IMG/VR virus record: IMGVR_UViG_3300030116_002181
Coordinates: 1-39,304 of that record
Length of the DNA stretch: 39,304 bases
Direction: 5' to 3' (one strand)
DNA from: a virus
Positions 1 to 30,268 of this stretch are shown here, one piece after another; positions within the stretch are counted from its first letter, which is position 1, and every line of letters starts with the position of its first letter. The notes beneath the pieces were generated by a model. That model was not told the origin of the DNA. It saw only the letters and a list, made by a program, of their open reading frames with translations, and made no database searches. The position numbers and the translations under genes are program-made.

Positions 1-1905
1 GATGATGACTTAGTAAAAAATGTTACAAATAGAGTTTTAAATAGGGCAGATGTAAAAGGAGCTTTTAATCAAAGAGCTTTACTTGACACATATATGTATG
101 ATGAAATTGTAGATGATCAAGGAACTACAGCAGCTCAAGTACAGTTAGACGAAATGCAAATGTCTTTAGAAGATGACATAAATGCATTAAATCAAAAAGG
201 TGGTGCGTTAACTGCTGAGGAGACAACAAAATTAAATAGTTTACAAGAGCAGTTAGAAAATCTTATTGAAAGTAGACAAGAAAACGGAGATATGTCAACT
301 CTTCAAAATATAGATCTTAACAATAAGATGAATGACTTCTACAAATCTAATGTAGCTAAATACGCATACGATAAAAGAGAATATGCTAGAACATATGACG
401 ATGACAAAGAGTGGCTGGCAAATAACACTGGATCAGAAAGTATAAATAACCCTCAATATGTGTATACTCCTAGCCTAGCTATGGAAGTTCCATCTTTAGG
501 AGGTACAGACACTAATTCATTAAATAGCTTTATTCAAGAAAAAGAAACATCAATTCAAACTACTTTAGATTACTTTAGTAATTTAGAAGGAGTAGATATT
601 TCTCAAGATGAAATTTTAGCTGATCTATTAAATTTAGATGATTTTGGAGTGCTTACAGAAGATGGAAAATATAGTGAAACTATACAACAATTATCTAGTA
701 AATACAACGTAACTCCAGAAGTATTTATAGAGAAAGCTAAACAAACTCAGATAAATAAACAAAAACAACTTTTAGCTCAACAACGTAAAAAAGAAGCTGA
801 AACAAAAGTATTTAGTGGTGACTATAATGCTATAAGATCTGAAGAGTTTGCAGAATTAACTAAAACAAGTGACTCTAATCCAGAACTAGCTATAAATGGA
901 GTAGATATTAAAAATGCTTTAGTTAAAATAGGCGCTATAGATAAAAATGCATCAGTTAAAGATGCTTTAGATTATTTATATAAAACAGCGGGAGGATTTA
1001 ATAATATAAAAATATCATCGGGGGCAAGTGAGAATTTATTATTTGGATTTGGAGAATCAGGACATGCTTTATTGCAAGCGTTATTAGCTGATAAATCTCC
1101 AAATGCTATATATGATTCAGAAGCAGCATTTACAACAAATGCTTCAACGGAACAAAGCGCTATGAATTATCAACTAGCTGACTTCTTAAAAGACTATACA
1201 ACTAGTAAAGAAAATGATGAGAAAAAGCTAACTGAGCATTATCAGGCTAATGTAAAAACCGATACAGGTTGGAATATGAATGATTTTGGAGACACAGAAA
1301 ATTCAAAGGAAGTAAGAGCTGCATTCAAATCAACCTTTAACGACCCAAGTGGGTTTTTGACTGTTCCTATATTTAACACTTGGGACGAAAATGCTGATCC
1401 AAATGAATCATATACTATTGCTGATTATATTGAAGATAATGGAGGTTTGTTTACTGACGGAAATGTAGAGATAAATGCAGATAATATAAGTCTTAGTTCT
1501 GTAGTCAGAGCGGATGGAGTATCTACGATTACTATTCCGTTAACAAATACAAAAGACGGTAAACCTGTACACATTATTGCAAGAGCTGATGGTGTAGGAA
1601 ATCCAGCTTTAGAAAGATGGACTAGTTCTGCAGAATACGAAGCAGGAAAGTTATGGCAAATGGGAATACAAGCGCATTTAACTAGTGGTAAATTTGCACC
1701 AGAGTTACTTGAAGGTATAGTATTTGATTATAATAATAATAAAGTTATTATTAACGGCGTGGCAAACGATATGGCACAAGGATTGCAAAAAGTTGCAAAT
1801 ATGTTAAATAGAGTTGGGTACGCAAAATCTATGGGAGGACTCGATGTAGATAAAGATAAATATAAAGCTTTCTTTGAAAAACTAAAAGTTACAAATAATA
1901 AATAA
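1..1905 (+). CDS. C-terminal part of a large virion-block protein (5' end outside window)
   Basis: The reading frame is open from base 1, so the first visible Met (base 94) is probably internal. 634 residues are visible up to a TAA at 1903-1905. I do not recognise a family. The visible part is acidic and polar, rich in Asn, Asp and Gln, with a predicted helical Gln/Lys/Glu stretch around codons 235-265 and no signal peptide or membrane segment. It contains no cysteine, as expected for this block, but unlike the next genes it also has none at its C-terminus. It lies 3 bases upstream of the 1161-residue gene and is probably cotranscribed with the giant virion proteins. By position it may be a structural or cargo protein; function unknown. 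Confidence 0.8.
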   Translation, partial: DDDLVKNVTNRVLNRADVKGAFNQRALLDTYMYDEIVDDQGTTAAQVQLDEMQMSLEDDINALNQKGGALTAEETTKLNSLQEQLENLIESRQENGDMSTLQNIDLNNKMNDFYKSNVAKYAYDKREYARTYDDDKEWLANNTGSESINNPQYVYTPSLAMEVPSLGGTDTNSLNSFIQEKETSIQTTLDYFSNLEGVDISQDEILADLLNLDDFGVLTEDGKYSETIQQLSSKYNVTPEVFIEKAKQTQINKQKQLLAQQRKKEAETKVFSGDYNAIRSEEFAELTKTSDSNPELAINGVDIKNALVKIGAIDKNASVKDALDYLYKTAGGFNNIKISSGASENLLFGFGESGHALLQALLADKSPNAIYDSEAAFTTNASTEQSAMNYQLADFLKDYTTSKENDEKKLTEHYQANVKTDTGWNMNDFGDTENSKEVRAAFKSTFNDPSGFLTVPIFNTWDENADPNESYTIADYIEDNGGLFTDGNVEINADNISLSSVVRADGVSTITIPLTNTKDGKPVHIIARADGVGNPALERWTSSAEYEAGKLWQMGIQAHLTSGKFAPELLEGIVFDYNNNKVIINGVANDMAQGLQKVANMLNRVGYAKSMGGLDVDKDKYKAFFEKLKVTNNK

Positions 1906-1908
1906 GGC

Positions 1909-4900
1909 ATGCCTATACAGTTTACAGAACAAGATGAGTTAAATGCTTCTACTAATCTGCCAAGAAAAAAACAGGGTGCAGGTATAGCTATTACTGAAGA
2001 AGAAAATGCTTTAGATAGGCCTACTCAAATAAGCAGTCCTTTATTTTTTGATACTGTAGATTTTACAGATACATATACTGACGATCTTTATAAATATACA
2101 GATTATGGTGTAGTTCCTACTAGATTTACAGACTGGAATGAAACAAGAGCGCAAAATCAAGGTACTGGAGAAAAATGGATGCGGGGTTTAGCAAAAGCTG
2201 GTATAACAACTTTAGGAGCAGTAGCAGAAAATACAGTAGGAATATTGACAGGTTTAGGATCTGTGTTAACAGGAGGTCAGTATTATGATAATGCTGTAGG
2301 TAGAACTGTAGACAAAGCTAATGAATGGGCACGAAGTCAAATGCCTAACTATTATACAAAAAGAGAAGAAGAAATGGGAGCTTTCCAAAGACTTGGAACA
2401 GCAAACTTTTGGGCAGATAAGGCTATGAATGGTTTAGGTTACTCTCTAGGTTCTATAGCTACTATGGCATTGACTGGTGGAGCGGGTTATTTAGGTATGG
2501 CGGGTAGAGCAATGGGTGCTAGCAGAATGGCTACACTAGGAGACAAAGCTGCAAAAATACATAAACTATATAAGACTACAAAAAGTGCAGCTACTGCAGG
2601 TAAACTTACTGATATGATGGGTAAAGTATCTGCTGCACAAAGATTTCAAAGAGCGGGGCAAATGCTCGATGCGGGTATTATGATGTCGCTTGCAGAGTCA
2701 TCTGTAGAAGCCAGAGAAACTAAAAAGCATACATACGACACTCTTGTAGAAAATGCGTTAGAACAAAAAGGATTAGAGTACGAATGGCAACTAGGTGAAG
2801 AAAAATTAAAAACTTTTAGAGATGCTTCTAATGCTGCGGGTAATGTAAACTTTGGTTTAAACATGGCTGTATTATCAGCATCTAATGCATATATATTTGG
2901 TAAAATGATGTCTCCTAAATATGTGCAAAGAAGCGGAGCCCTTAGAGGTATAAAAAAGAACCAAGCAGGAGAGTGGGCAGATAACACAGCTAAAGGTTGG
3001 AGAAAAGGATACAAGAGAGTTAAACCTGTACTGCAAGGATCAGCTGCAGAAGGTATTCAAGAAGGTTCGCAATATGCATCTAATATAGGTACTACAGAAT
3101 TCTATACTTCTAAGTTTTCTGATATGGGAGGTATTAGTAGAGTAGAGGCATTAAACGAGGGTTTATCTAGAACGTTTGGAGAAACAGAAGGTATAGAATC
3201 TATATTACTAGGTATTATTACTGGTGGTATAATGGGTGGTGGAACCTCTTTAGTAAACAAACCTATGAAAGCTAGAGATGCTGCTGCACAACAAGTACTA
3301 GATATATTAAATACAGGTGAGTTTTTAAACAGTGTAGATAAAGCGCAAGGTCAAGAACGTACACTAAAACTGTTAGAAAAAATGGAGGAGGCGTATAAAA
3401 ACGATGATCCAGGACTAGCAGAACAATATAGACTACAAGCATTGATGAGTGATATAATCACTATGGACAATGCAGGGTTAATAGATTTATACAAACAGAA
3501 ACTTGATGACGCAGTAAACTTGCCTGATGAAGAATTTGCAAAACAATTTGGGTATAATACTGAAGTAAAGTTTGATAAACATAAAGTTGTAGAAGAATTA
3601 AAAAAAGATATTGATATTATAGTAAAAAGAAAAAATGCTATTGATGCAATGTTTCCAACTAGAAGAACATTGGGTATTCCTAGATTATTAATGTCAGAAG
3701 AAGCTAGAGCAAACGAAGAGCAAAGAATTAAAGAAACTGTAATATTAAAAGATGCATTACTACAACAATCTGTATTTTTAGATAAAGTAGAAGGATATAA
3801 AAAAGAAGCAGCACAAAATATTGCAGATATTATACCTGGAATAACATTAAGTAGATTAGAAAAATCAGCAGACTCTGCTAAAGAAGAGTATGATAGATTA
3901 ATAGAAGAAGCTATTTTAGCAGACCCTAATGCAACTAATGAAAATGAATTACCAAAAGAAGTTAGAGATGCAGCTCTTCAAGCAGCATATAAAAAATTTA
4001 TAGATGATACGTCTAACGGCATAGAAACTAAATATAATCCTGCAGACACTGAGCGTTTAAGCAAAGCTTTAGGTAAATATTATGGTTTACACTCTGCAGA
4101 ACAAGAAGTATTTGAAGGTTGGAATAGGCTACAGACTAATGCTGGTAGAAATGACTACATCAGAGTAGCGTTAATGGATGAAAAAAACAAAATTAACGAA
4201 GAGTCTGATAAAATGGTTGAGGATCTTATACAACAAGAAACTGACCCAGAAAAAATTGCTAAAAATGTACCAGAAGGAGCTAGCACTGCAGCAAAAGAAA
4301 AAGCAAAAAAAGAAGTGCAGAATATAAATAATATTAGACAAAATATTATTAACAAGTACATGGATGAAAAAGTCAGTATGGAGGAAATAGATGCAGCTAT
4401 TGAAGAGCGTAAAGACTCTGAACTTAGAATGCCATTTGAAAATACTGAAGACAAACAAGCCTACATAGAGCTTTTAGAATTAAGAAAAATTAAAAAGACT
4501 AGAGAAGGTCAAGGTTTGGTTAATCCACAAGCAGAGCAAGCAGAACAAAATAGTAAAGATATACAAGAAACTGTACTAGTTGTAGACAGTGTTGAAAAAC
4601 TTAAAAGGGTATTTAAACCTGTACATCCAAATGAGCACTATAGCCATGTAACTTTATCAAAAAAGGAAAATTTAAGCGATGACTATTTAAGTCGTTTTCC
4701 AATAGGAAAAGAAAAAAAGGTTAAAATTATAGGAAGGTATAAATCTGATAGAATGGATGTTATTCTTATAGAACCAACTATGGCTAGTGATTATAGTAAT
4801 CCTTTTATTGTACTATCTTTAGCAGACGGTGTCACTATGGCTGAGGTGCAACCTGCTTTATTTGAAGCACAAAAAGGTACAAAAATAAAAATGTACAAAT

Positions 4901-5394
4901 CTCCTAAATATGTAAATACTACATTTGGATATATGGATGGTAACGGTGCATTTATTACTGACACTGTAGAAGAGTCTGCACCTGAAGCGCCTGTTGACTC
5001 TGCTGCTGAAGTAGAACAGCCTGTAACAGAACAGCCTACTCAGAATCTAAATGAGATTGAAGAACAAGCTGAGATGCAACCAGGTGAACAAATGCAAATG
5101 TTTGAAGAACAGCCTGTAGATGAATTGCAATCTGAGGAGTATGATTCTTTTGTAGAAGATGATGTTATTATATTAGACGATGAGTTTGTTCCTGATGATG
5201 TTAAAAAAGCTGAATTACAAGCATTTAACGTAGAACAGAAAAAGCAAACAAATGAGCTTGTAGAAGAACCATCACAATCTTTAGGAGAGATTATGTCACA
5301 AGAAGATATAGTGGCTGAAGAGGAAGCTTTACGTAAAGAAATGGAAGAGCTTAAAAAGAATTTAAACAAAGAAGACGATAACTGTGCTACGTAA
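1909..5394 (+). CDS. Giant virion/ejection-type protein with hydrophobic Gly-rich segments
   Basis: An 1161-residue protein. Glycine/alanine-rich hydrophobic segments lie at about residues 96-122, 174-203 and 430-448, a pattern seen in phage internal proteins that enter membranes during DNA delivery. Residues 450-900 look mainly helical and charged. After about residue 985 comes a long acidic Glu/Gln/Pro-rich tail ending in a coiled-coil-like segment. The only cysteine is the third residue from the end (Cys1159). The start lies 3 bases after the previous stop, and the TAA overlaps the next ATG by one base (TAATG), so the two are translationally coupled. Directly upstream of the virion RNA polymerase region, it is best read as a virion cargo or ejection protein. 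That is inference from context and composition; no enzyme motif is visible. Confidence 0.85.
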   Translation: MPIQFTEQDELNASTNLPRKKQGAGIAITEEENALDRPTQISSPLFFDTVDFTDTYTDDLYKYTDYGVVPTRFTDWNETRAQNQGTGEKWMRGLAKAGITTLGAVAENTVGILTGLGSVLTGGQYYDNAVGRTVDKANEWARSQMPNYYTKREEEMGAFQRLGTANFWADKAMNGLGYSLGSIATMALTGGAGYLGMAGRAMGASRMATLGDKAAKIHKLYKTTKSAATAGKLTDMMGKVSAAQRFQRAGQMLDAGIMMSLAESSVEARETKKHTYDTLVENALEQKGLEYEWQLGEEKLKTFRDASNAAGNVNFGLNMAVLSASNAYIFGKMMSPKYVQRSGALRGIKKNQAGEWADNTAKGWRKGYKRVKPVLQGSAAEGIQEGSQYASNIGTTEFYTSKFSDMGGISRVEALNEGLSRTFGETEGIESILLGIITGGIMGGGTSLVNKPMKARDAAAQQVLDILNTGEFLNSVDKAQGQERTLKLLEKMEEAYKNDDPGLAEQYRLQALMSDIITMDNAGLIDLYKQKLDDAVNLPDEEFAKQFGYNTEVKFDKHKVVEELKKDIDIIVKRKNAIDAMFPTRRTLGIPRLLMSEEARANEEQRIKETVILKDALLQQSVFLDKVEGYKKEAAQNIADIIPGITLSRLEKSADSAKEEYDRLIEEAILADPNATNENELPKEVRDAALQAAYKKFIDDTSNGIETKYNPADTERLSKALGKYYGLHSAEQEVFEGWNRLQTNAGRNDYIRVALMDEKNKINEESDKMVEDLIQQETDPEKIAKNVPEGASTAAKEKAKKEVQNINNIRQNIINKYMDEKVSMEEIDAAIEERKDSELRMPFENTEDKQAYIELLELRKIKKTREGQGLVNPQAEQAEQNSKDIQETVLVVDSVEKLKRVFKPVHPNEHYSHVTLSKKENLSDDYLSRFPIGKEKKVKIIGRYKSDRMDVILIEPTMASDYSNPFIVLSLADGVTMAEVQPALFEAQKGTKIKMYKSPKYVNTTFGYMDGNGAFITDTVEESAPEAPVDSAAEVEQPVTEQPTQNLNEIEEQAEMQPGEQMQMFEEQPVDELQSEEYDSFVEDDVIILDDEFVPDDVKKAELQAFNVEQKKQTNELVEEPSQSLGEIMSQEDIVAEEEALRKEMEELKKNLNKEDDNCAT

Positions 5395-7151
5395 TGGGAT
5401 GCGATAAAGATAAAATATTTAAGATAGAAGACAGGCTTGCAGAGATACAAGCTAGGCTAGGGCAATTAGAGTCTATGAAAGAGTCTAAAGAAATACTTAC
5501 ACCTGAAGGCGAAGTAGGCGTATCTAATGCAAAAGGACGTGTAAAAATGTTTAGAGCTCCTAATGGTAAGTATAAAAGATCTGTAACTATACAGGGGCAA
5601 GAAATAATACCAGAGTATAAAAATCAAAATACAATAGATTCTAAACCTGATGGTGTAGAGGAAGTATTTATGGATGACCCTAGGTTGAAGTCAGGCGATT
5701 TAGTAGAAGTACAATACGTAGAAAATGACTTTTGGAAAAACAATAAATGGCAGTATGAAAACGAAGAGTGGAAAGCTGCGCCTTTGTATTTAGTAGATCA
5801 AGACGGTAATGTGCTAGACTTGTTAGAATCGTATAAAGAAAATAAAGAAGCTACATTAAAAAGAAAAGAAATATACGAAGCTATATTAGCTGGTAAAAAG
5901 GTTGAACTACGTATTAAAAAGAAAATGTACAACTTTAACAATGTACAATACGCAGGATCTCCTGTGTTTATGGATGTTAGAGAAAACCTTACACCTAGAC
6001 TATTAAAAGATTCTAATGGTAATATTATAGAAGCTTCTGAAAATCAACCTGTTGTGTTAGCAGCTGCGCGAGGTATAGAAAAAGACCACTGGGGGCAAAG
6101 CGGTGTACCTAGGTGGGATATGGGAGATGTACAAAATGTAGAGAATGAAGATGTAGTAACTGCTATGCAAAACGACGTAGCAAATATAACTCCTATCTAC
6201 GAAGGATCTGATGCAAATACTAAAGCAGGTCAAATTGCAGCTGTTGTTTTAGCGCCTGATGGCAGGTATACTGTAGCATATTTGTCTACAAGAACACTAT
6301 CTAACAAAGCAGTAGAATATGTATTACAATCTGCTGCCTCAGGAAATACAGAAAGTGTAGGAATGCTTGTAGGAAATAATACAAGAAAAGAAACTGCATT
6401 TAAAAACAATAGATTTCTAAATATAACAAGCCTTGTATATAAAGGTGAGCCTAGAACGTTTATAAACTTTTACAGTGAAGGACACGCTAAAAATGGCAAC
6501 ATGCAATCTTTGGTTAGAATAGAAGGGCCTGAACTAGCAAAAGCACTTAACGGTGAAAAATTTAAATACAGTGTAGGAGTATTTGGGGTTAGTAAAGCTG
6601 ACTCTTTACGTGCAAAAGAAATATTAGAACAAGGGGGTAGTCCTAAAGCTCCAAATGTTAGATGGGTAAATTCTAAAAATATTGTATCTTTGCCTACAGA
6701 AGGCGTAGATGTTATCTCAGAGCTAAGAGCTATTCTTAAGTCTAAAAAACATCATGTCGATGCTGATTTACTAAACAGTCAAGAACAGTTTGAAATACCT
6801 GGTTTTACAAAACCTGGAGGATACAATACGTATCAAGACTATTTGTTTGACACTAAAGCGCACGGCGAACAATTTAATCTTGCTACAGATGTGGTAAACA
6901 ATACTGCAATTGTAAATACAGATATAAAAAATATAGAAGGATCTACATTCTTCAACACAACTTTAACGTTTAGTGATTTGTTTATTGATGGCACATCACA
7001 AAAAACAGAAGAAATTGCAAGTACTAAGACGTCATTACGTCCTGGTACAGGAGCGGCAAGTGCTGGTCCAACAATAACAAGAAGAACGGCTCGTTCTCAA
7101 GCAGAGCAAATGGCCGCAGAAAAAGAAAAATTAGATAACTGCGGGTTTTAA
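5394..7151 (+). CDS. Virion-block protein with terminal cysteines, function unknown
   Basis: A 585-residue protein whose ATG overlaps the previous stop by one base. Residues 5-35 look like a short amphipathic helix. The rest looks like beta-rich globular domains, and the last 40 residues are a Thr/Arg/Ala-rich linker followed by a charged helix. I recognise no family. It has exactly two cysteines, at position 3 and at the third residue from the end. Its place between the hydrophobic 1161-residue protein and the RNA polymerase suggests a virion component packaged or ejected with them. It might be an accessory polymerase subunit, but nothing in the sequence proves this. Confidence 0.85.
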   Translation: MGCDKDKIFKIEDRLAEIQARLGQLESMKESKEILTPEGEVGVSNAKGRVKMFRAPNGKYKRSVTIQGQEIIPEYKNQNTIDSKPDGVEEVFMDDPRLKSGDLVEVQYVENDFWKNNKWQYENEEWKAAPLYLVDQDGNVLDLLESYKENKEATLKRKEIYEAILAGKKVELRIKKKMYNFNNVQYAGSPVFMDVRENLTPRLLKDSNGNIIEASENQPVVLAAARGIEKDHWGQSGVPRWDMGDVQNVENEDVVTAMQNDVANITPIYEGSDANTKAGQIAAVVLAPDGRYTVAYLSTRTLSNKAVEYVLQSAASGNTESVGMLVGNNTRKETAFKNNRFLNITSLVYKGEPRTFINFYSEGHAKNGNMQSLVRIEGPELAKALNGEKFKYSVGVFGVSKADSLRAKEILEQGGSPKAPNVRWVNSKNIVSLPTEGVDVISELRAILKSKKHHVDADLLNSQEQFEIPGFTKPGGYNTYQDYLFDTKAHGEQFNLATDVVNNTAIVNTDIKNIEGSTFFNTTLTFSDLFIDGTSQKTEEIASTKTSLRPGTGAASAGPTITRRTARSQAEQMAAEKEKLDNCGF

Positions 7152-7164
7152 ATATGAATAAATT

Positions 7165-10100
7165 ATGGCATGTACAGTACAACGCAATCGTGATGGCGCG
7201 ATTGAAAAGGTTCTTGCCCCTAACGGGAAAGAATCTATCCTCTATAACGAACTTAGCAACAGACTAGGAGACAAAGAGGCAGCTTTAGAAGCATATTCGT
7301 TTGTATTTACAGATAATTTTAAGAACGCATTTGGCAATTGGTTAGAGCCAGATGAGACTTTATCTGATAAATTAGATGAAAATGGTGAACCGTTCTTGGT
7401 TCACGCTATAGCTCCGCCTATAAAAATATCTATTTCGTCTACTATCCCTGGATACTCTGAGCAGAACATAAAAGATGTTTCTGATTTACTTATAAATAAA
7501 TACATAACTAGTGCACGTAAACTAGAACAAGAAGGTAAGTCTGTAAAAACAGGACAACTTATTAACTCTATTAGAAACTCTTTTCTTAGAGATGCATTCT
7601 CTAGACCAGATGGTACACCGCTACCAGTAACAGGTAAAGAAGGTAGAGAAGTATTAAAAATATTACAAGAGTATTTAGAAAAAGAGGGTACTGACGAAGG
7701 TCGTCGTCTTTTAAAAATAAACAATATACAAGCTAGGTCACCTATTGCGCCTGGCTATCCGTCGCAAGACAACCACGATAACTTTTTAGATATATATGAA
7801 CAGTGGACTGATGTTGTAGAGGGTGAAGAACAAAACGTTACACGTGCTGGATTCCAAAGTGTTATGGCTAATAGAATGAAAAACTATGGCCTAAAAATGA
7901 CACTAGGACAAGAAACGTTGGAAGAAACAGAGGAAGGTTCTTTGTTTGAAAGAATCTATTCTAGAGCGAGAGTAAAAGAGGACATGAGAACCAAAGTAAA
8001 TGAAAAGGTAAAAACTTTTTTAGCTACTATAGAATCTAATGACAATTCGTATTTAGGATACAAAAGATTTATACCGTTTGAAACTGTATATGCGGATCTG
8101 CAAAATGGGCTAGCTGGTAGTACAGACTTTGCAGAAATGGTTGTAAGAATGAAAAACATGTCTAAAACAAAACCGCACATCAAACAGGTTTATGACAAAC
8201 TACAACAAAAAGACGAAAACTTAAAAGCTGCTTTTTACTTTACGTTTGCTCTACATAAAAATGAATTTGTTCTATTTAAAGAAACAAACAGTGGTCTTGT
8301 AATTATGGATGCAAAAAGAAACTCTTTGCAAAATAAATACATGTCACAATGGAAAGCTACGTCTACACAAAAAGAAGGCGCTACAAACTTAAGACATTTA
8401 TACAAAGTAGCAGAAACAGAAGACGGTGTACAATACACATTAAATAATTCTACTGCAAATAGTATTGTATCTAATTGGAATAAGATGCAGGAAATTTACG
8501 ATATGAATGAAATGGATTCTGTACCTCCTGCGCAAATAGAAGCCATGGTAAACTTCCTTAGAGGGTTTGGTATAGATTTGTCGGGTAAAAGTGTAGAAGA
8601 AGACATGCTTGCATTACAAGGATATTTAGAAATAGGAGATACAACGTTTTCTCCTGGTTCTGCTCCATTGAGAGGTGTACCGTTGTATAAATCAATGATA
8701 GCGTCACCAGACTTCCAACTTGTTAGACTAGTAAATGCTATTGTAGATGGTAAAGCTGTGCGAGGTAAGTTTAAAAACTTTACACCTAAAGAGTTTCCAC
8801 AAAATGTATATACCTCACATGCAGGTATTATATCTAAATTTGCAGCTATACCTTTAAGCACTGAAACAGATATATTTGGGTCGTTTATAAACTCTGCAGG
8901 TAACTCTATATTCCCTATAAATCTAACTACAGTTATGGATGACTTGTTGTTAGATTTAAAAGGTAGAGATCCAATGTTTTTTGAAAATTACTATCAAGAT
9001 CCATTCTTTAACCCTGTAAGCTCGCAAGAAACAGGCAATAATAAAAAAGTACAATCTTTATACTTACAATTATTTGATAGCAAAACAGAAAAAGGTAATC
9101 TAAAAAGATTTAGTAAAAACGCTAGAAAAGAGTTACGAGGAATGACTCTAGATGCATTTAGAAAACTTAGCGGTAAGACAATAGAATATGCAGGCTTAAA
9201 TGCAAAAAACTCTATGTATCTTAGAATGGCTGCGTTTTTAAACCCTAGTGGTAAAGCTGGATACACTATGATGTCTACGCCTAACTTAGCGGATAGATCT
9301 AAAATGAAGTTTTATATTGTTCCTACAGTAGAAACTATGCAGGACAAATTAAAACTTAGTGAAGAAGAAATAATAAAAGGTATTATAATACAAGACTTAA
9401 TGCGTTACAAGCAGGCTAAGAAAGATTTAGAAACTTTGCCTGATAATAGACTAATACCTGGTTTTCATACAGGTGTAGAAGGACAAGAAGGAAATGCATT
9501 TAAAATGCAACAGTTTACTGTAGTAGAAAACACGCAACTAGGAGACATAAATCTATACGGCGGACCATATATGTTAAGTGATGTTGACTGGGCTGCATAT
9601 GTAAAAGGAGATCCTCTAGATATAAATAGAGATTTAGTAGATAATGCATTAAATATAGAAATTCAAAAAGTAAAAGATTACATAACTCAAAAAACTGCAG
9701 ATACAATGCAGTCTTATAGAGAAGCAGGTCTAATAAAAGGTAAAGGTATAAAAAATGTAAACTCTAATAAGTTTAACAACTTAGATGATTTATTTAGATC
9801 GTATACTTTAAATACGATAATACACAAGATAGAAATGCAAAAGTTTAGTAGAGGCGGTATATCGTTTAACAAAAACTATGCAGACTTTTCTAAGCGTTTT
9901 GGTAATATGGAAACTCCTGGTTACAAACTATTACTAAAAGGAATGCTAGCAGAGGATGGACCTATGGCTGATTGGGGATTTTTTCAAGAGTTTAACGAAG
10001 GTCTAATGGATGACTTTTTTACAACGCCAGAAGTGTATGATCAAATAGGAGACTCTATTACACTAGGTCTTATGGAAATAGAAGGCATGAGTTTAGAAGA

Positions 10101-13100
10101 CGCTTCTAAAGTAGGTAATGCTTACAAAGGTGGTCAGTCTAATAAATCTGATGCATTTGGTATTGTACCATTAGCTACTTATAGAGCATTTAAACAAGGT
10201 AGAGGTGATTGGTCAGATGTAGAAGAAAGAGCATATGAAAGATATGTCAATGCTCCGTCGGGACAGAAGCGTTATATGGATGATAATGGTAACCGCTTAA
10301 GAGTAGAACCTATAAAACAGTACTATGATAGAATGACTTATGTAGATGGTAGAATGGTACCGCAAGCTACTAAGAACTCTTATATGGTACTACTAGAAGA
10401 GTATACTAGAACAAACCCTAAAGCAGATTTAATACGTAAACGTATGGAAGGGATAGAAGAGTTTAAAGGTTTAGATCCTATACATGCAATTAATACAGTA
10501 TCTACCAAAAAGCTAGCAAAAAATGGTGTAGAAGATTTATCTACAGACACACAAGCTAAGCTTGCTAATATGACATCTGTAAAAATGAAAGGCTCTGGAT
10601 TTAGAATACCGCAACTTATACCCGATAAAGGTAAAAAGAAGTCAGGTGTTTTAGGTAGACAGTTTATGATTAATATTATTGCAAATTTAAACTTAGCTAG
10701 TCCTAATGCAAATTACAATGTAGACGGTCAAGCTAATCTTACCGCACAGCAAACTTTTGATCTATACCACAATAGTATAGGTATAAAAATAGATAAAGCG
10801 TATAATCAATTAATGAATGAGCTTGGCTATGCGGGATTAGAAAAAGCAATTAAAGAAAACAAAGGTATTGACAAAGCTAGACTAGCATTTTTACAAAATT
10901 TAAGAGGTATTATATCTCAAGAGGCTGCAGAAAGAGAGCTTCCTGAAAACTACATGCAGGCCCTAACAATAGAAAAAGACAATCAAGGTAATTGGCAGTT
11001 TATGATGCCGTTATCATTTCCAAACTATAAGCGTAAGTTTGAGTCTATTATTATGGGCGTTCTTAAGAAACGTATAATAAAACAAAATGTAAATGGTGGT
11101 AGCGCAAAACAAATAGCAGAGCTTGGAGGCCATATAACTTCGCAAGATGCGGGACTTACAGAACTTAAGTTTGTAAGATATGAAGATGGTACTATTAAGA
11201 AAGCTGAAGTTGCTATAAGATCAGATATTGCTGCACAATACGGATTTAAACCTGGTGATGACTTATCACAAATACCTGAAGAGCTTAGAACTATTATAGG
11301 CTATCGTATTCCTAATCAGTCTAAAAATTCTGACATACCTTTAGTAATAAAGTATGTATTACCCGACAACTATGATCAAGCAATTGTTGTGCCTGGTGGT
11401 ATTACTACACAGCAAGGTAGTGACTTTGATATTGATACATTGTATTTATTAATGCCGCATACAAAGTTAAATAAAGACACAAATACAATAGAAAAAATAA
11501 AAGTGCCTTATGATAAATTATTTGACGAGAGTGGTAAGCTAGACATGCAAGAGTTAAATAAACTAACTCCTAAAGAAGTTGACAATATCTTAGTTGACGT
11601 GTCTGAAGCTATATTAACATCACCTGTGCACTTTAAAGAGGTAGTTACACCACTAGATTCTCCAGACTTAAAATCTATAGAAGCGTCTGTAAAAGAACAA
11701 TTGCAATTAGATGTAGAGTTTGACCACAATGATCCTATGGTAGAAGTGTCTTTAGAAGAAATTAATAAAGATGGTCTTGCGGGCGTTGGTATATATGCTA
11801 ATGCATTAACAGGTACAAACATTGCAAGATACAGTACTATGAGAATAAATGAAGGAACGCCAATGATCGACGGAGTGCCTTACAATACATTGCAAAATGT
11901 AAAAGATAACAAGTCTGTATCTGACAACATGCTTGCATTAGGTAGAGAAGACGAATTTATAGAGTATGTAATATCTAAAAGAATAAGTTCTTCTGTAGAT
12001 AATGCAAAAGAACCAGGCATGTTCTATAGAAATGATAACTACTTTACAGGATTAGTGCACACGTTATTTGACTCTGTAGGTATAAATGAGTTTGATACAC
12101 ACGGTTATATAAACCAACCAATTATTAGAAGACTGTCTGATATATATAAAAAAGGTGAGTTTACACCTAACATGATTATGACAGCTGTATCTGAAACTTG
12201 GAATGAATATGCAGAACTAGTAGCAGAAGAAACAGGTCAACCAAAAACTGATATAGATGCTATTTGGTTTGATGCTAAAGAAACGGCGTTAACTATAGGA
12301 CCACACGAAATGTCTAGTTCTAGATTAGAGGATATTACAACTGGTGATGTTAGAGAGCAGGCGCAATATCTTGCAAACTTTATACAATTCTTTAGAACTG
12401 GTAGACAACTAGGTAATGCATACAAAGTATTAAACCAAGACAAAGGTGCGGACAAAGCATCGTTCGGAGGACTGTTAGAGTTTAGAGGTATGTACGAAGC
12501 ATTATTAGAAGGACAAACTGTAGAAGGTGTGGAGGGAGTATTATTTGGACAAGAGTATCCAATGCAAAGAGCGTTTAATTTAGCAATAGAACGTATGTTA
12601 GAATTTGGTGATCAATTCTTTTTGCATAGATTACCATCAGTGCGTGTTACAAAAGAACATATAAGAAATCTATTAAACATAGAAAATTTATCAGAAGCGG
12701 ATCACAGAAACATAGAAGAAGCAATGCTTCTATATATGATGTCACAAAACAGAGAAGATAATCCGCTAGCAAATGTGTTTACAGAGGATAACATTATAAG
12801 GTTACTACTTAATCCAAATACATCTTTAGTTACTGTGGTAGAAGATTTAAAAACTGCATACCCAGCACTAAAAAATAATCCTTTTGTAGCTAATCTTATA
12901 GAACATCCTGAAAACTTAAGACCTGAGATGCCGTTAACTAGACTTAGATTCCAAAACTTATATAGTTTTTCTAAGTTTGAAAAAGATATGTTTACAGATG
13001 GTATAAAAAATATGTTTGCTAATCCTGGTATATATACAGAAGACCCAGCTGGACAGCTTGCAATTAGAAATTTTGCATTAGATTTAATTAAAGTATCTTT

Positions 13101-13698
13101 GCTGTCACACGGGTTTACGCCTGGGCATGACACGTTTATAGATATTATACCTGCAGGAATGTTAACTAAATCAGCTACGTATTTTAGAAATGAAAGGGCA
13201 AGAGTAAAAGCAGATAGTAGTGCTAACTATTTTGGTAATGATTTTGCGCATAAATTTATACGTAACTTCTATTACACAGATATAGTACCTAATATAAAAG
13301 TTAACAAAAAGCAAGTTGTAGAAGCTATGACAAAAGGTAATTATATACAATTAGATAGCACAGATTCTAGAATATACTCTAAAATACACGGACAACCTAC
13401 AGCATACTTTACAGTAAATACAAAAGATGGTAAAGTACTCTTTGTTAGAGAAAGTTTTGAACCTAAAGGTAAAGCTATATATGCAAAATCATCTACTTTA
13501 GGTATACCTTACGGATTAAAAGAGATGAATGTGTACGACGCAGAAGGTAAAAAACTTAGAAAATCTGTAGGAGAAACTACTAGAAGATTTATTAGAGTAA
13601 AAGGTAGTAACACAATGCCTGGTGTAGAACATCAGCAAAAGAAAATCAGAGACACAATTGCACGTCAAGACGAGCAAGCTCAAAAAATATGTAGTTAA
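7165..13698 (+). CDS. crAss-like phage virion DNA-directed RNA polymerase
   Basis: A 2177-residue single-chain RNA polymerase of the crAss-like/YonO type. The diagnostic motif is SDFDIDTLY at about residues 1419-1427. Asp1420, Asp1422 and Asp1424 would bind the catalytic magnesium in the double-psi beta-barrel, in a DFDID version of the cellular DxDGD motif. Length and motif match the Cellulophaga phage phi14:2 enzyme, which is carried in the virion and transcribes early genes after injection. The start MACTVQ lies 13 bases after the previous stop. Apart from Cys3 and Cys2176 the whole chain lacks cysteine. It probably transcribes the minus-strand early genes in this window; that assignment is inferred from the family. 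Confidence 0.93.
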   Translation: MACTVQRNRDGAIEKVLAPNGKESILYNELSNRLGDKEAALEAYSFVFTDNFKNAFGNWLEPDETLSDKLDENGEPFLVHAIAPPIKISISSTIPGYSEQNIKDVSDLLINKYITSARKLEQEGKSVKTGQLINSIRNSFLRDAFSRPDGTPLPVTGKEGREVLKILQEYLEKEGTDEGRRLLKINNIQARSPIAPGYPSQDNHDNFLDIYEQWTDVVEGEEQNVTRAGFQSVMANRMKNYGLKMTLGQETLEETEEGSLFERIYSRARVKEDMRTKVNEKVKTFLATIESNDNSYLGYKRFIPFETVYADLQNGLAGSTDFAEMVVRMKNMSKTKPHIKQVYDKLQQKDENLKAAFYFTFALHKNEFVLFKETNSGLVIMDAKRNSLQNKYMSQWKATSTQKEGATNLRHLYKVAETEDGVQYTLNNSTANSIVSNWNKMQEIYDMNEMDSVPPAQIEAMVNFLRGFGIDLSGKSVEEDMLALQGYLEIGDTTFSPGSAPLRGVPLYKSMIASPDFQLVRLVNAIVDGKAVRGKFKNFTPKEFPQNVYTSHAGIISKFAAIPLSTETDIFGSFINSAGNSIFPINLTTVMDDLLLDLKGRDPMFFENYYQDPFFNPVSSQETGNNKKVQSLYLQLFDSKTEKGNLKRFSKNARKELRGMTLDAFRKLSGKTIEYAGLNAKNSMYLRMAAFLNPSGKAGYTMMSTPNLADRSKMKFYIVPTVETMQDKLKLSEEEIIKGIIIQDLMRYKQAKKDLETLPDNRLIPGFHTGVEGQEGNAFKMQQFTVVENTQLGDINLYGGPYMLSDVDWAAYVKGDPLDINRDLVDNALNIEIQKVKDYITQKTADTMQSYREAGLIKGKGIKNVNSNKFNNLDDLFRSYTLNTIIHKIEMQKFSRGGISFNKNYADFSKRFGNMETPGYKLLLKGMLAEDGPMADWGFFQEFNEGLMDDFFTTPEVYDQIGDSITLGLMEIEGMSLEDASKVGNAYKGGQSNKSDAFGIVPLATYRAFKQGRGDWSDVEERAYERYVNAPSGQKRYMDDNGNRLRVEPIKQYYDRMTYVDGRMVPQATKNSYMVLLEEYTRTNPKADLIRKRMEGIEEFKGLDPIHAINTVSTKKLAKNGVEDLSTDTQAKLANMTSVKMKGSGFRIPQLIPDKGKKKSGVLGRQFMINIIANLNLASPNANYNVDGQANLTAQQTFDLYHNSIGIKIDKAYNQLMNELGYAGLEKAIKENKGIDKARLAFLQNLRGIISQEAAERELPENYMQALTIEKDNQGNWQFMMPLSFPNYKRKFESIIMGVLKKRIIKQNVNGGSAKQIAELGGHITSQDAGLTELKFVRYEDGTIKKAEVAIRSDIAAQYGFKPGDDLSQIPEELRTIIGYRIPNQSKNSDIPLVIKYVLPDNYDQAIVVPGGITTQQGSDFDIDTLYLLMPHTKLNKDTNTIEKIKVPYDKLFDESGKLDMQELNKLTPKEVDNILVDVSEAILTSPVHFKEVVTPLDSPDLKSIEASVKEQLQLDVEFDHNDPMVEVSLEEINKDGLAGVGIYANALTGTNIARYSTMRINEGTPMIDGVPYNTLQNVKDNKSVSDNMLALGREDEFIEYVISKRISSSVDNAKEPGMFYRNDNYFTGLVHTLFDSVGINEFDTHGYINQPIIRRLSDIYKKGEFTPNMIMTAVSETWNEYAELVAEETGQPKTDIDAIWFDAKETALTIGPHEMSSSRLEDITTGDVREQAQYLANFIQFFRTGRQLGNAYKVLNQDKGADKASFGGLLEFRGMYEALLEGQTVEGVEGVLFGQEYPMQRAFNLAIERMLEFGDQFFLHRLPSVRVTKEHIRNLLNIENLSEADHRNIEEAMLLYMMSQNREDNPLANVFTEDNIIRLLLNPNTSLVTVVEDLKTAYPALKNNPFVANLIEHPENLRPEMPLTRLRFQNLYSFSKFEKDMFTDGIKNMFANPGIYTEDPAGQLAIRNFALDLIKVSLLSHGFTPGHDTFIDIIPAGMLTKSATYFRNERARVKADSSANYFGNDFAHKFIRNFYYTDIVPNIKVNKKQVVEAMTKGNYIQLDSTDSRIYSKIHGQPTAYFTVNTKDGKVLFVRESFEPKGKAIYAKSSTLGIPYGLKEMNVYDAEGKKLRKSVGETTRRFIRVKGSNTMPGVEHQQKKIRDTIARQDEQAQKICS

Positions 13699-13699
13699 T

Positions 13700-16600
13700 A
13701 TGGCATGTAGATATTATTTAAAAGGAAAGTATAGTCAACTTTACACAGATCTATACACTGAACTAGAAAGCGGTAAACCTAGTATTGAAAAAGTTTATGA
13801 AATATTAAAAGGAGAACTTTTAACTACTAGGCATGGATTATGGTTTGTAAAGCAAGGTGAAAGCCATTTGTATGCAATGCAAGAAATCAACAGAATAAAC
13901 AGAGATTACCCTGGTCTTATAGAAACTAAGTATCATAGAGACAGTTATAAGCCTTTTGGTAAAGCGGGTAATAAAGTATATAAAGCTCGTGTAAATAAAT
14001 TTGTACTAGATGCAATTGTACCTCAACAAGAGCAACTTGATATTATAGCTGAAAGTAAAGAGCAACTACAAGAAATGCAAGATCAGGATGCGTTACTATC
14101 TGAGCAAGTACGTCTTGATAACACATCTGAGCAGTCTAAAGGTATTGTAGGTGAACAAGAAGACAGACCAGTTACAGAACAGAAAGCAGACAGATTAAAA
14201 TCAAACTTTGCTAAGGTAGGTATTAATGTAGACGTAGAGTTTACTAAAGATTTAGCTGATAACGTTGCAGGAGATGTAGTAGGTGATGGTGCGCGTAAAG
14301 CAACAATACGAATAAATGAAAACTATTTATTAGATGATACTGTATACCACGAATTTGGCCACATATATATAGATCTATTAGGAATGGACAACTCTTTAGT
14401 GCGCCAAGCATTAAAAGAATTAAAAGATTCTGACTTAGCTAACCGTGTTGCCGAAATGTATCCTGATCTGTCTGGTGTAAGACTACAAAAAGAAATACTA
14501 GCTACAGCAATTGGTGAGCAAGGCGCTAAGATAGAGCGTCGTAATCCATCTAAACTGCAAGTAATACTAAACAAAATATTTAGAGCAATAGGTAAAATAT
14601 TTGGCGTAGAACCAAATGCCGCGGCAGTGTTAGCGGAACAAATGTTTGCAGGAGAAATACGTAGAGATTCTTTATCAGGCCAAGTTAGTAACCTTGTACA
14701 AGAAAGTAGAACTAGGGAAAAACTAGATAAACTTATTGCAGAAACAAAAGTACTTGCGCGTAACCTTATAAACATTGCAAGATCTAAAGGTAACGAAGCA
14801 GCCCTGGCCCGTGCAGAGAAAATGATGGAAAACTTAGAGCAAGTAAAACAGCTAGAAGACTTCTTAGATTTTATTGATACAGCTGGTAAAGCAACCGCAA
14901 ACATTAGTAATAAATTTGCAATTATAGAAAAGAAAATTAGAGACGGAGAGCCTGTAACTACTGAAGACATGGCTAGCATTGTAGATCTAAAACAATACTT
15001 AGATGGTTTTGAAGTATTAAAAAACATAAACATAGCATTTACAGAAGATGCTAAACTTAGAGCAGTGCCCTTACAATCATTTATAGATACACAATCTAAA
15101 CTGCGTGCTATTATTGCTGAGCGAGAAGCTCTAGAAGCAAAATATTATGAAATAGGTATACCTGCATTAGCGGATAGATTGTTACCGTTTGCTGTAAACG
15201 AGATCAATGAACAGCTAGACACACTTATAGAAAATATAAGAACACAAAAAACTGCGTCTAGACATGTAGAAACAAATGACAAACGTTATGGTAAACTTGC
15301 AAAAGATTTAAAAAACGGTACAATAACACAAGAAGAGTTTGATCAAGGTGTAGAAGACCTAGCTATACAGCAGTTGCAAGAAAAAAAATCTAACAGAGAA
15401 AATTTAATTGCGCTACTAACAAAAGCATCTAGAGATAAAAGTAAGTTTTCTTTTTTACTAGATCCACTTATATATTCTAACGATAATGCAATACAATTAT
15501 TTACTAAACTAGTTAAAGATTCTTTATACCAAGCAGATGACAATACTAAAGATTTTTTATACTCATTACAAGATGCGTATAGAGAATTTGTAGAAAGTCC
15601 AGGCGTAAGTGAGAATAATGTAGAAAAAATGAACAAGCAATTGGTTGAAGAGATAGAAGAATATACGTACAACGAGAAGACAGGAAAGTATGAAAAAATT
15701 ACTAGAGTAGCTTTTGTGCAAGAGTACGATATAGCTAGATATAAAAAGAACAGAAGAGAAGCAGTGCAAAAAGCATCTGATAAAACTAATTACTATACAC
15801 CAAAAGATTTTGCAACTGAAGAAGAGTTTGAAAAATACTTAGCAAACATAGAAGCTACAAGGCAAGGTGGATACGCAGCTGCTAAAAAAGCATTTAACTC
15901 AGAAATGCAAAAATGGTACCGCATGAATACATCTCCAGTAGATGGGGCTATTGACATAGCAAAAGAACATGAGAAAAAAATTAGAACTACAATAAAAGAA
16001 ATAGCTAACCTACAAGAAAAAGTTTTAAAGAATGAGGCTAGTCCAACAGAAATAGAAAAACTTACAACTTTAGAAATAGAACTAGCTAATTTAGAAAGAT
16101 GGAAAAACCAAAACTATTACATTGATAAATTTGGTGATCAGTCTACACCTATCGTAAAAGGTGGACTTGTTAGACCATCTCTTGGAGAAATGGGCCCTGC
16201 TCGTACTAACAAAGTAGATTATACAAATCCTAAATATCAAAAAATACAAAGCAATCCTAAACTAAAAAAATATTACGATTTTTTATGGGACAATTATAAA
16301 AAGGCGCAAGACAAATTAGGCAAGGCTGGTAACAGAATGAGTAAAAACCCTTGGGATAAATACTCATACATGATACCATCTATACGTAAGACAGATAAGG
16401 ATCGTGCTATAGAGCAAGGTATTATACCTCTAGCAAAAGAATTATGGAAAGAAGGGACCGATATTGTAACAACAGATGTTGTATATGGTGATAGATTAAA
16501 AGGTATTGGCGGAGAAGAATACAAATTAATACCTGTATTCTACACACAGCCTATAGATAAAAAAGACGTTAGTTATGATTTAGCGGGAAGTTTAGCGCAG

Positions 16601-18151
16601 TTTACACACATGGCAAATATGTTTGAATCTAAATCTAAGATACAGGCAGAAGTACAGCTAATGATAGATGTTATAGGTAATAGAGAAACATCGCTAACTA
16701 GTCCTATGGGCACAGAGATTATGGATGTTATTGCAAAAGGATTAGGATACGACATGCCAATAACAAGACCTGGCCAAGAAACTAATAACTTTAAACATTT
16801 ACAATCTTTTGTAGATAACGTGTTCTTTGGTGAAAAATCTATAAAAACACAGTTTAACTTTTTAGGTAAAAACTTTGAGGCTAACAAGATGGCTGGAATG
16901 ATAGCTGGATATACAGCAATGAATTCTTTATCATTTAACTTGTTACAAGCTGTTAACCAAAGTACTCTTGATAATATACTAGGTTATGCAGAAGCAGTTG
17001 CGGGACAATTCTACAACCAAAAATCTTGGGCTAAGGGCAAACAAGTGTACTGGGCAAATGCAGGAGCAATGTCTGATGTAGGTAAAATGGCACCTGAGTC
17101 ATACCTAGGCCAAATGATTGATATATATGATCCTATACAAGGAAACTTTAGAGATAACGTTGGTAGAAATGTCACAGGTACTAAAGCTAAAAAACTATTT
17201 ACATCTAACGCTTTATTCTTTTTACAGCATGGAGCTGAACATGAGTTGCAAGTATCTAGAATGCTAGCAATGATGGAATTTGTAAAAGCAAAAGACAAAG
17301 ACGGTAAACAGTTGAAGAATAAAGATGGATCTGATATGACTATATTAGATGCGCACAAAAAAGGTAAAAACGGTAGAGTTAAAATAGATCCAAGAGTAGC
17401 CAACTTTAATAAAATGGATTTTATGAATAGACTGCATGGATTGAATAAGCGTACAAATGGTGTATACAATGACTTTGACCAGAACCATCTAAAAAGATTA
17501 TGGTATGGTAAACTAGTAATGCTGTTTAGAGGTTGGATGGTACCTGGTATTAGAAGACGTTTTGGACATAGTGAGTTGTGGCATGTAGATCAAGAGATGG
17601 GAACTCTTACGCAAGGTTCATACATAACATTCTACAAACTATTAAAAGACTCTGTTATAAAACAAAGCAACCAGTATTCTACAATGACAGAGCTAGAAAA
17701 ACAAAATGTACGCAGAACTATGGTAGAGCTAGGAGCATTCTTATCTACAATTGCAATCTACATGGCTCTATCTATGGATGATGATGAAGAAAAAAACTAT
17801 GCTACTACATTTATACTATACCAAGCACGTCGACTACAAACAGAACTTGGAGCGTATACTCCAATATTAGGAACAAGAGAAGCATTAAGGTTATTAGAAA
17901 GCCCATCCGCAAGCATTAGACCAATACAAAACTCAGTAAACTTAATGGAATCTATTTGGAAAAATGGATTATATTTTGGTAGCGGAGGTAATATAATAGA
18001 TGAAAAAGAAATATACTACCAAAGAACACAAGGTAAGTATAAAAAAGGAGATCTTAAAATACAGAAAAACTTAGAAAAGATGGTTCCGATAGTAAACGGA
18101 TTTGAAAAATCTAAAAATGCAGAAGAAGCTCTAAACTGGTTTAATAAGTAA
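13700..18151 (+). CDS. Giant virion protein with zincin-like metallopeptidase domain
   Basis: A 1483-residue protein counted from ATG 13700. The frame is also open from an ATG at 13658, but 13700 lies one base after the preceding TAA and gives the same Met-Ala-Cys start as its neighbour, so I prefer it. HEFGH at residues 217-221 fits a zinc metallopeptidase HExxH helix; Glu265 in a following helix (KEILATAIG) is a plausible third ligand, giving a gluzincin-like site. Residues 330-860 are long, charged and helical. A hydrophobic segment lies near 1343-1356. Cys3 is its only cysteine. crAss-like phages are known to carry zincin domains in giant proteins next to the polymerase. It may process virion proteins or cut host wall or host proteins on entry; the substrate is unknown. 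Confidence 0.85.
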   Translation: MACRYYLKGKYSQLYTDLYTELESGKPSIEKVYEILKGELLTTRHGLWFVKQGESHLYAMQEINRINRDYPGLIETKYHRDSYKPFGKAGNKVYKARVNKFVLDAIVPQQEQLDIIAESKEQLQEMQDQDALLSEQVRLDNTSEQSKGIVGEQEDRPVTEQKADRLKSNFAKVGINVDVEFTKDLADNVAGDVVGDGARKATIRINENYLLDDTVYHEFGHIYIDLLGMDNSLVRQALKELKDSDLANRVAEMYPDLSGVRLQKEILATAIGEQGAKIERRNPSKLQVILNKIFRAIGKIFGVEPNAAAVLAEQMFAGEIRRDSLSGQVSNLVQESRTREKLDKLIAETKVLARNLINIARSKGNEAALARAEKMMENLEQVKQLEDFLDFIDTAGKATANISNKFAIIEKKIRDGEPVTTEDMASIVDLKQYLDGFEVLKNINIAFTEDAKLRAVPLQSFIDTQSKLRAIIAEREALEAKYYEIGIPALADRLLPFAVNEINEQLDTLIENIRTQKTASRHVETNDKRYGKLAKDLKNGTITQEEFDQGVEDLAIQQLQEKKSNRENLIALLTKASRDKSKFSFLLDPLIYSNDNAIQLFTKLVKDSLYQADDNTKDFLYSLQDAYREFVESPGVSENNVEKMNKQLVEEIEEYTYNEKTGKYEKITRVAFVQEYDIARYKKNRREAVQKASDKTNYYTPKDFATEEEFEKYLANIEATRQGGYAAAKKAFNSEMQKWYRMNTSPVDGAIDIAKEHEKKIRTTIKEIANLQEKVLKNEASPTEIEKLTTLEIELANLERWKNQNYYIDKFGDQSTPIVKGGLVRPSLGEMGPARTNKVDYTNPKYQKIQSNPKLKKYYDFLWDNYKKAQDKLGKAGNRMSKNPWDKYSYMIPSIRKTDKDRAIEQGIIPLAKELWKEGTDIVTTDVVYGDRLKGIGGEEYKLIPVFYTQPIDKKDVSYDLAGSLAQFTHMANMFESKSKIQAEVQLMIDVIGNRETSLTSPMGTEIMDVIAKGLGYDMPITRPGQETNNFKHLQSFVDNVFFGEKSIKTQFNFLGKNFEANKMAGMIAGYTAMNSLSFNLLQAVNQSTLDNILGYAEAVAGQFYNQKSWAKGKQVYWANAGAMSDVGKMAPESYLGQMIDIYDPIQGNFRDNVGRNVTGTKAKKLFTSNALFFLQHGAEHELQVSRMLAMMEFVKAKDKDGKQLKNKDGSDMTILDAHKKGKNGRVKIDPRVANFNKMDFMNRLHGLNKRTNGVYNDFDQNHLKRLWYGKLVMLFRGWMVPGIRRRFGHSELWHVDQEMGTLTQGSYITFYKLLKDSVIKQSNQYSTMTELEKQNVRRTMVELGAFLSTIAIYMALSMDDDEEKNYATTFILYQARRLQTELGAYTPILGTREALRLLESPSASIRPIQNSVNLMESIWKNGLYFGSGGNIIDEKEIYYQRTQGKYKKGDLKIQKNLEKMVPIVNGFEKSKNAEEALNWFNK

Positions 18152-29413: not shown

Positions 29414-30268
29414 TTAAAATATATATCTGATTTTATTCCAGGGTATTTTACTATTATGCAGCTCTTTAAACTGCTGTATAAACTTGCCCTTTACTCCAAG
29501 TTTATATCTAACATTTTCTCCACCATACTGAGATTGCTTTACCTCCTGTAGTTCAGGACGCCATAACGTTACTTCAGTTTGCGGGTGTCGACCAACATTT
29601 ACAATATGCTTTTTAAAGTTATGTGTAAGAAATATAACTTCTGCAAGCACTTGACTTTTGTAGTCTACATAACTATTTACCATATCAAATAAATCTGCAT
29701 AGTCATCTAACCAGCCTTTGTAAAATATTACAGGACTGTAGTTAACATGTACATCATAGCCTGCATCTATAAATGCATCAATAGCTTTTATTCTATCAAT
29801 AATTTTAGATGTATGTGGCTCATGTATATCTGACATTTTTTGCGGCATCAGACTAAACCTTATACGTATTTTACCTTGCGGGTCAAACATAGTAAGGTCA
29901 GGGTTTACATACTTTGTTGCAAAACTACCCATCGCAATAGGATGATCTCTGAAAAATTCAAAGATACGTTCCCAATCATGATACTTAGCATGCAAAGCAA
30001 AGTCTTCGTTACAACTAATGTCATAAGTAGTAAACTGTGCGTGAGTCTGATTAGGCTTATCTACAGGTGTAAAATAAGCGTGATTGTTAATGTGTGTAAG
30101 TATATCACCAGTGTTAGTAGCAACACTAAGACCTTTGTCTTTGTGTCGTTTCATATAGCAATAGCTACAGTTGTATAAACAACCGTGGCCAAAGCTAGGT
30201 GATATAAAGTCAGTTGATCGTCCAGAATGTCTAATAGTAAAACTTTTACGTTTTACTTTTTCAATCAT
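29414..30268 (-). CDS. Radical SAM protein, spore photoproduct lyase-like
   Basis: 284 residues. The radical SAM cluster motif is CLYNCSYC at 30-37 (Cys30, Cys34, Cys37, CxxxCxxC spacing), preceded by SPSFGHG. This variant spacing and the following pattern resemble SplB-type lyases rather than general CxxxCxxC maturases; the length also fits the short phage SPL-like group. In bacteria SplB repairs UV thymine lesions in DNA. A phage role could be DNA repair or base modification, which its position between the DnaB-type helicase (4-base overlap) and recombination genes supports. The substrate is not shown by sequence. Confidence 0.85.
   Translation of the reverse strand: MIEKVKRKSFTIRHSGRSTDFISPSFGHGCLYNCSYCYMKRHKDKGLSVATNTGDILTHINNHAYFTPVDKPNQTHAQFTTYDISCNEDFALHAKYHDWERIFEFFRDHPIAMGSFATKYVNPDLTMFDPQGKIRIRFSLMPQKMSDIHEPHTSKIIDRIKAIDAFIDAGYDVHVNYSPVIFYKGWLDDYADLFDMVNSYVDYKSQVLAEVIFLTHNFKKHIVNVGRHPQTEVTLWRPELQEVKQSQYGGENVRYKLGVKGKFIQQFKELHNSKIPWNKIRYIF

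Follow-up and report, generated by a model that had tools for sequence, protein, structure and literature searches.

Paired cysteines at the facing ends of split RNA polymerase cargo proteins in crAss-like phages: a probable disulfide-linked chain

The window analyzed here is a stretch of 39,304 nucleotides, 39.3 kb of the 39.6-kb virus record IMGVR_UViG_3300030116_002181, and its plus strand carries four consecutive open reading frames (ORFs) that make up a chain of large cargo proteins, among them a virion RNA polymerase (RNAP), of the kind found in crAss-like phages (Crassvirales). The first member (1909..5394), of 1161 amino acids (aa), is related to the N-terminal part of gp47 of phi-crAss001 (crAss001) and of gp078 of Cellulophaga phage phi14:2; it matches crAss001 gp47 (1e-8) and PHROG 32390 and so belongs to the gp47 type. 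Its sole cysteine (Cys), C1159, is third from the end (NCAT; codon at 5383..5385), and its N-terminal end has none. The second member (5394..7151) has 585 aa, is a separate protein in the window only, and contains just C3 (MGC; 5400..5402) and C583 (NCGF; 7140..7142). The third (7165..13698) is the RNAP of 2177 aa, identified as a crAss-like virion polymerase by the catalytic motif GSDFDID (in GSDFDIDTLY) and by matches to PDB 6vr4 (E 4e-26), to phi14:2 (E 1e-35) and to crAss001 gp50; its only Cys are C3 (MAC; 7171..7173) and C2176 (ICS; 13690..13692). The fourth (13700..18151), of 1483 aa, carries the zincin motif HEFGH, matches crAss001 gp49 (5e-46) and phi14:2 gp076 (1e-30), begins with MAC, whose C3 (13706..13708) is its sole Cys, and has no Cys at its C-terminal end. 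The window thus holds the Crassvirales RNAP cargo module, with a gp47-type protein before an RNAP bearing DxDxD and a gp49-type protein after it.

An earlier note on this DNA had drawn attention to six Cys in these four ORFs, all near ends that face each other. When the ORFs and Cys positions were recomputed, the same picture was obtained: the chain has 6 Cys in 5,406 residues, every one of them within three residues of an end, a placement with P of about 8e-15 if Cys were distributed uniformly. All six facing ends have Cys and neither of the two outer ends does. The Cys-free state of the partial protein upstream (1..1905, plus strand) and the ordinary Cys levels of the minus-strand genes, also mentioned there, were likewise reproduced. 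The partial protein is not part of the chain and occupies the position that the cargo proteins gp45/gp46 have in crAss001, and the proteins matching that place in the close relatives L216-L219 also lack Cys (L-numbers, such as L099, denote the IMG/VR and phage loci compared).

About 210 relatives were collected: named Crassvirales, Flavobacterium and Cellulophaga phages, a cyanophage and, for the most part, IMG/VR contigs. They comprise 25 phage-collection records and 186 IMG/VR loci, the latter found through family alignments. Such alignments were needed because scans with single proteins found nothing, neither for the window RNAP in viral contigs nor for the 585-aa protein in the phage collection. 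Each locus was translated in its own code (standard, TAG as Gln or TGA as Trp), and all terminal and internal Cys of its large ORFs were listed. In two crAss-like contigs, L044 and L050, the long ORFs are open only if TGA is read as an amino acid.

Throughout these loci the order is gp47, RNAP, gp49, and it is divided into polypeptides in different ways. Three separate proteins are found in Steigviridae, gp47 followed by an RNAP+gp49 fusion in Intestiviridae and Crevaviridae, a gp47+RNAP fusion followed by gp49 in Suoliviridae and Flavobacterium phage Fpv1, and four proteins in the window. Further partitions are those of phi17:2 (1957, 517 and 1914 aa), a Leptolyngbya phage (1552 and 2748 aa) and L178 (3890, 1167 and 1308 aa), and some phages have a single fully fused giant of 5,005-5,711 aa. 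The RNAP core was not detected in phi17:2 and the Leptolyngbya phage with the profile used, and both have Cys at the facing ends nevertheless; the Cys rule is therefore not tied to the polymerase domain. The Leptolyngbya phage (L011) also has at 3049-5073 a 674-aa protein with a lone Cys at position 5 (MKKKC) that follows a protein without Cys, an unexplained case.

Wherever the order is split, Cys is found at the C-terminal end of the upstream protein and at about position 3-8 of the downstream one. Among 388 adjacent co-directional pairs of large ORFs, taken without homology labels, Cys was present on both facing ends in 200, on neither in 168, and discordantly in 20 (Fisher p 3e-83); since the ORF pairs are related to each other, the weight is carried by the tree test described below rather than by this count. 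With homology labels, splits between RNAP and gp49 had Cys at the RNAP C-terminal end in 145/152 and at the gp49 N-terminal end in 151/152 cases, while a C-terminal Cys was found in 0/44 proteins in which this junction is fused and at 0/146 outer C-terminal ends of gp49. Removal of near-duplicates left these proportions at 126/131, 131/131, 0/41 and 0/126, respectively. The gp47 C-terminal end has Cys in 69 of 73 adjacent cases and in 26 of 27 cases where gp47 lies on the opposite strand; in a second adjacency test of gp47 and RNAP, seven fused gp47+RNAP loci with a large preceding cargo protein had been wrongly counted as splits. The few remaining misses trace to introns or HNH genes that interrupt the catalytic motif, to the choice of start codon, or to Cys located 15-31 residues from the end (L168, L188, L074, L213). 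Where an ORF is broken in this way at GSDFD, Cys is mostly absent from the break, and the true ends retain it. In five loci (L014, L022, L032, L084, L169) the RNAP frame is interrupted at this motif as by self-splicing introns, and in L014 and L022 the gap holds an endonuclease-like or unrelated gene.

When chains were bounded by homology alone, 48 of them had Cys at 149/152 junction ends and at 0/96 outer ends, and 28 of the 48 contained exactly 2(n-1) Cys, and no other, in 4,300-7,700 residues. As background, among the non-chain ORFs of 150-450 aa in the same loci, 5% have Cys in the first 8 residues and 10% in the last 12, and their Cys content is 1.5% versus 0.18% in chain ORFs. Two named phages follow the rule, crAss001 with gp47 C2339, gp50 C5/C2404 and gp49 C5, and phi14:2 with C1797, C3/C2179 and C3. 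The note had asked whether the terminal Cys are conserved as pairs in other crAss-like phages; the roughly 210 loci display facing ends conserved as Cys pairs in a fixed order, with outer ends free of Cys. Loss of Cys on one side of a junction, which it had named beforehand as the outcome speaking against the idea, was sought in all of them and occurred only in ORFs affected by introns or start codons. The internal Cys depletion that it described holds for the window and many contigs and is not universal: chain proteins of gut lineages have up to about 26 internal Cys each and keep the terminal ones regardless. Internal Cys are frequent (0-26) in the Intestiviridae-type loci L108-L133 and near zero in many others (L174-L206), with terminal Cys kept in both; the difference may reflect habitat oxygen.

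Such regularity at ORF borders could in principle be produced by gene prediction, or by DNA signals at starts and stops or for translational coupling. Overlaps of a few bases are common between the genes, and most terminal Cys codons are TGT (371/413; internal 1109/1418), both of which would fit. Against this, the C-terminal Cys is kept with gp47 on the opposite strand or with genes inserted in between, the position of the Cys varies, and the phi14:2 proteins carry a structural annotation derived from tandem mass spectrometry proteomics, so that an artefact is almost certainly not the cause. Translational coupling was rejected as a cause, since convergent genes keep the pattern. Together with the opposite-strand gp47 genes, L184, in which foreign genes lie between RNAP and gp49 and the facing Cys are still kept, indicates that protein identity rather than gene adjacency is what matters.

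The coupling of Cys to splitting was followed on a tree of 184 polymerase cores, built with FastTree from fast-evolving proteins. The gp47/RNAP junction changes state 11 times and the RNAP/gp49 junction 8 times; in independent contrasts on supported branches terminal Cys tracks the split in 6/6 (p 0.03) and 8/8 (p 0.008) cases, respectively. This analysis predates the re-coding of L080 and L210 as splits, which could only subtract a state change. These two loci had been taken as fusions with TAG read as Gln, a reading that was rejected: TAG is a real stop there, and the standard code gives splits with facing Cys. The fully fused giants have no terminal Cys, and 6 of 7 have no Cys at all. Apparent exceptions among fused proteins (L034, L043, L060, L061, L069) contain large insertions; three of the five, which have a separate gp47, are really split, and two are undecided.

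The window itself provides a close comparison. The alignment of its 585-aa protein with the 2793-aa RNAP protein of L099 starts at the first residue of both and covers the N-terminal 540 aa of the latter (39% identity over 573 aa). In L216, L217, L218 and L219 (the last being the same contig as L099) this part is fused to RNAP, and the only Cys are one at position 3 and one some 5 residues before the C-terminal end. The MGC or MAC start corresponding to C3 of the 585-aa protein is kept in all four, and C1159 of the gp47-type protein has its counterpart in the Cys tails DCKN, DNCNT, DNCKTKK and DNCK of the same 4/4 relatives. The window, split between the 585-aa and 2177-aa proteins, has exactly the two extra Cys, C583 and RNAP C3, that the four fused relatives lack; both occur only where the 585-aa part is separated from RNAP. 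In the same way a 1167-aa piece has become separate in L178; its C-terminal half corresponds to the C-terminal part of the L172 RNAP protein, and the extra Cys pair is present. At the RNAP/gp49 junction the RNAP of L002 ends in KNCI, and the N-terminal Cys of gp49 is retained though its position drifts (MAC in the window, MAKKC in L002, whose gp49 is a 70% relative, and MKRC in L099).

Two further observations concern the chain proteins. The first roughly 80 RNAP residues of the window (7165-7404, plus strand) resemble gp49 N-termini (36% and 45% identity; residues 1-63 of the 1314-aa ORF of L106, and cr115_1 gp53), as if an N-terminal cap module might be shared between chain members. Zincin-like HExxH motifs are found in differing chain members depending on the phage: in the window only in the gp49-type protein (13700-18151), and in L099 both near residue 630 of the 2793-aa ORF, between the 585-like part and RNAP, and in gp49.

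The absence of Cys from the outer ends and from fused junctions bears on the possibility that each terminal Cys serves its own protein, in lipidation, portal or DNA anchoring, or stability, and that the pairing is incidental. Short MAC/MSC motifs do recur at the N-termini, as such a role would have it. With Cys at 0/96 outer ends and none at fused junctions, and with other cargo proteins and neighboring junctions lacking partners, we give this explanation very little credit.

Since Cys are present on both sides of a break and absent where there is no break, a bond between the two ends is the simplest chemistry. A bridge could alternatively be formed by zinc, iron or another thiol ligand held hook-like between chains without any disulfide, and Cys pairs of neighboring copies could supply four thiolates. 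However, each end has a single Cys, the commonest head and tail sequences show neither CxxC nor a conserved adjacent His, and many tails end on the Cys itself, which makes metal binding highly improbable. A disulfide is likely, because crAss001 virions hold several inter-subunit disulfides, in the tail hub, the ring proteins and gp57 (PMC10172136), and the chain shows no obvious metal-binding motif.

A disulfide might also act in a different setting, as a clamp in a folded, co-packaged RNAP complex that fixes one copy of each subunit, with delivery by partial unfolding and order given by other contacts. The fusions between the same neighbors suggest that the ends lie close in a folded assembly, and the cargo space of the capsid has room for about six copies each of the three RNAP-associated proteins (PMC10172136). 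Yet the differing split sites (before the 585-aa part, after it, between RNAP and gp49, and within the C-terminal part of RNAP) all behave alike, so that a clamp would need each of these end pairs to be close in the fold. Moreover, the Cys lie 0-3 residues from the C-terminal end in 197/213 cases and at position 3-6 in 246/259 N-terminal ends, as in a flexible linker. We regard such clamps as a credible though rather unlikely alternative.

The explanation we favor is that gp47, RNAP and gp49 form a disulfide-linked, ordered strand delivered as one unit, and on the present evidence it is probably correct. The large proteins packed in the capsid would constitute one linear ordered strand that was cut during evolution into 1-4 polypeptides at varying places. 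At each cut, a Cys in the flexible C-terminal tail and another at about position 3-8 in the protein that follows would take the place of the peptide bond, the inter-chain disulfide most likely forming in the mature virion, which is no longer reduced. The linked set would pass through the tail as a single unit, N-terminal end first, and other Cys would be kept rare to avoid wrong bonds; in phages with split chains, reduction of the links in the host cytoplasm would allow the subunits to refold. By this link separate proteins could behave like the fused giants of their relatives. In its broader form, that of a split polyprotein whose pieces are rejoined by virion disulfides that evolution can exchange for peptide bonds, letting several giant proteins, an RNAP among them, enter the host as a continuous strand, the proposal is somewhat more probable than its denial. 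The bond, its formation in the virion, N-to-C delivery as a single strand and release by reduction are what we infer from the pattern; ejection as a single thread is plausible.

Several points weigh against this proposal. The disulfide between chain ends is deduced from sequence. The reducing cytoplasm in which the proteins are synthesized leaves only a late stage for their oxidation, and pairing of sister copies by their C-terminal ends or by their N-terminal ends would be compatible with the data. Release of RNAP is no general requirement, because natural phages carry it fused to gp47, gp49 or both, and it may therefore be an incidental step. Nor do terminal Cys reveal in which direction or order the proteins are ejected. 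AlphaFold2 modeled the 585-aa protein with low confidence only (mean predicted local distance difference test score, pLDDT, 50), too poorly for a fold search or for placing its termini. Thioredoxin-like genes are annotated in several of these phages; no Pfam match to thioredoxin was found in the window's 20 minus-strand proteins scanned. For crAss001, virion mass-spectrometry data exist for reduced (R) and unreduced (NR) samples (PMC10172136). The masses computed for its predicted disulfide-linked peptides are M 1992.017, [M+2H]2+ 997.016, for gp50 ICGANTLYEL with gp49 CAIIPQVR, and M 1812.823, [M+3H]3+ 605.282, for gp47 CNS with gp50 CITTNSTIEELAAK.

Other genes of the window lie on the minus strand. 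A radical-SAM protein (29414-30268) matches the Pfam spore photoproduct lyase (E 1e-24) and is possibly a phage-carried UV repair gene; a small protein (33504-33947) has the C-terminal DNA-binding domain of bacterial DnaA (E 2e-14), and a 911-aa protein (21627-24362) has a GHKL-type ATPase domain (HATPase_c_3, E 2e-9). No capsid, portal or terminase gene was recognized in the window, the record being a 39.6-kb fragment.

It is an open question how phages manage to send several giant, folded proteins in the correct sequence through so narrow a tail. A covalent cargo link that is conserved and switchable would, if true, resolve part of this question for a virus group that ranks among the most abundant in the human gut, and would offer a case, open to testing, in which disulfides and peptide bonds substitute for each other in evolution. 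The sequence rule would also mark the true protein ends of chain genes despite introns and changed codes.

The Cys pattern is genuine and very strong and, to the extent of the search, undescribed: in agreement with the earlier note, no description of terminal Cys or disulfide-linked cargo was found in the literature searched, a prior mention in the phi14:2 polymerase structure paper being possible. The crAss-like transcription gene block has been described without mention of Cys (PMC7886860). The structural atlas of crAss001 reports disulfides only in tail and vertex proteins, does not contain the word "cysteine" and has no passage on disulfides in cargo; it proposes that the cargo protein gp45 exits N-terminal end first (PMC10172136). 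The giant virion RNAP of N4-type phages (Schitoviridae) is injected through a narrow tail and is Cys-free like the fused crAss-like giants, which has been explained by passage through the tail or periplasm (PMC3715699, PMC3915230). It is, however, a single polymerase unrelated to the crAss-like one; N4 vRNAP (3342 aa read) and gp51 have zero Cys and no terminal pairs, and instead of a single Cys-free RNAP of about 3,500 aa the window encodes one of 2177 aa with two terminal Cys and kinship to 6vr4. The T7 internal core and ejection proteins gp14, gp15 and gp16 are large and ejected, as the crAss-like cargo is, and gp15 and gp16 have zero Cys and no terminal Cys pairs at facing ends. In polyketide synthases, docking domains at short C- and N-terminal ends join consecutive separate proteins in a fixed order, with fusions at the same junctions. 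That docking is non-covalent and serves enzymes rather than virus-injected cargo, and we mention it as a lead only. The nearest known systems are gp47, gp49 and gp50 of phi-crAss001 and gp078-gp076 of phi14:2 (RNAP 6VR4), which have the same proteins, order and catalytic motif as the window, and the window differs from both in its fourth chain member.

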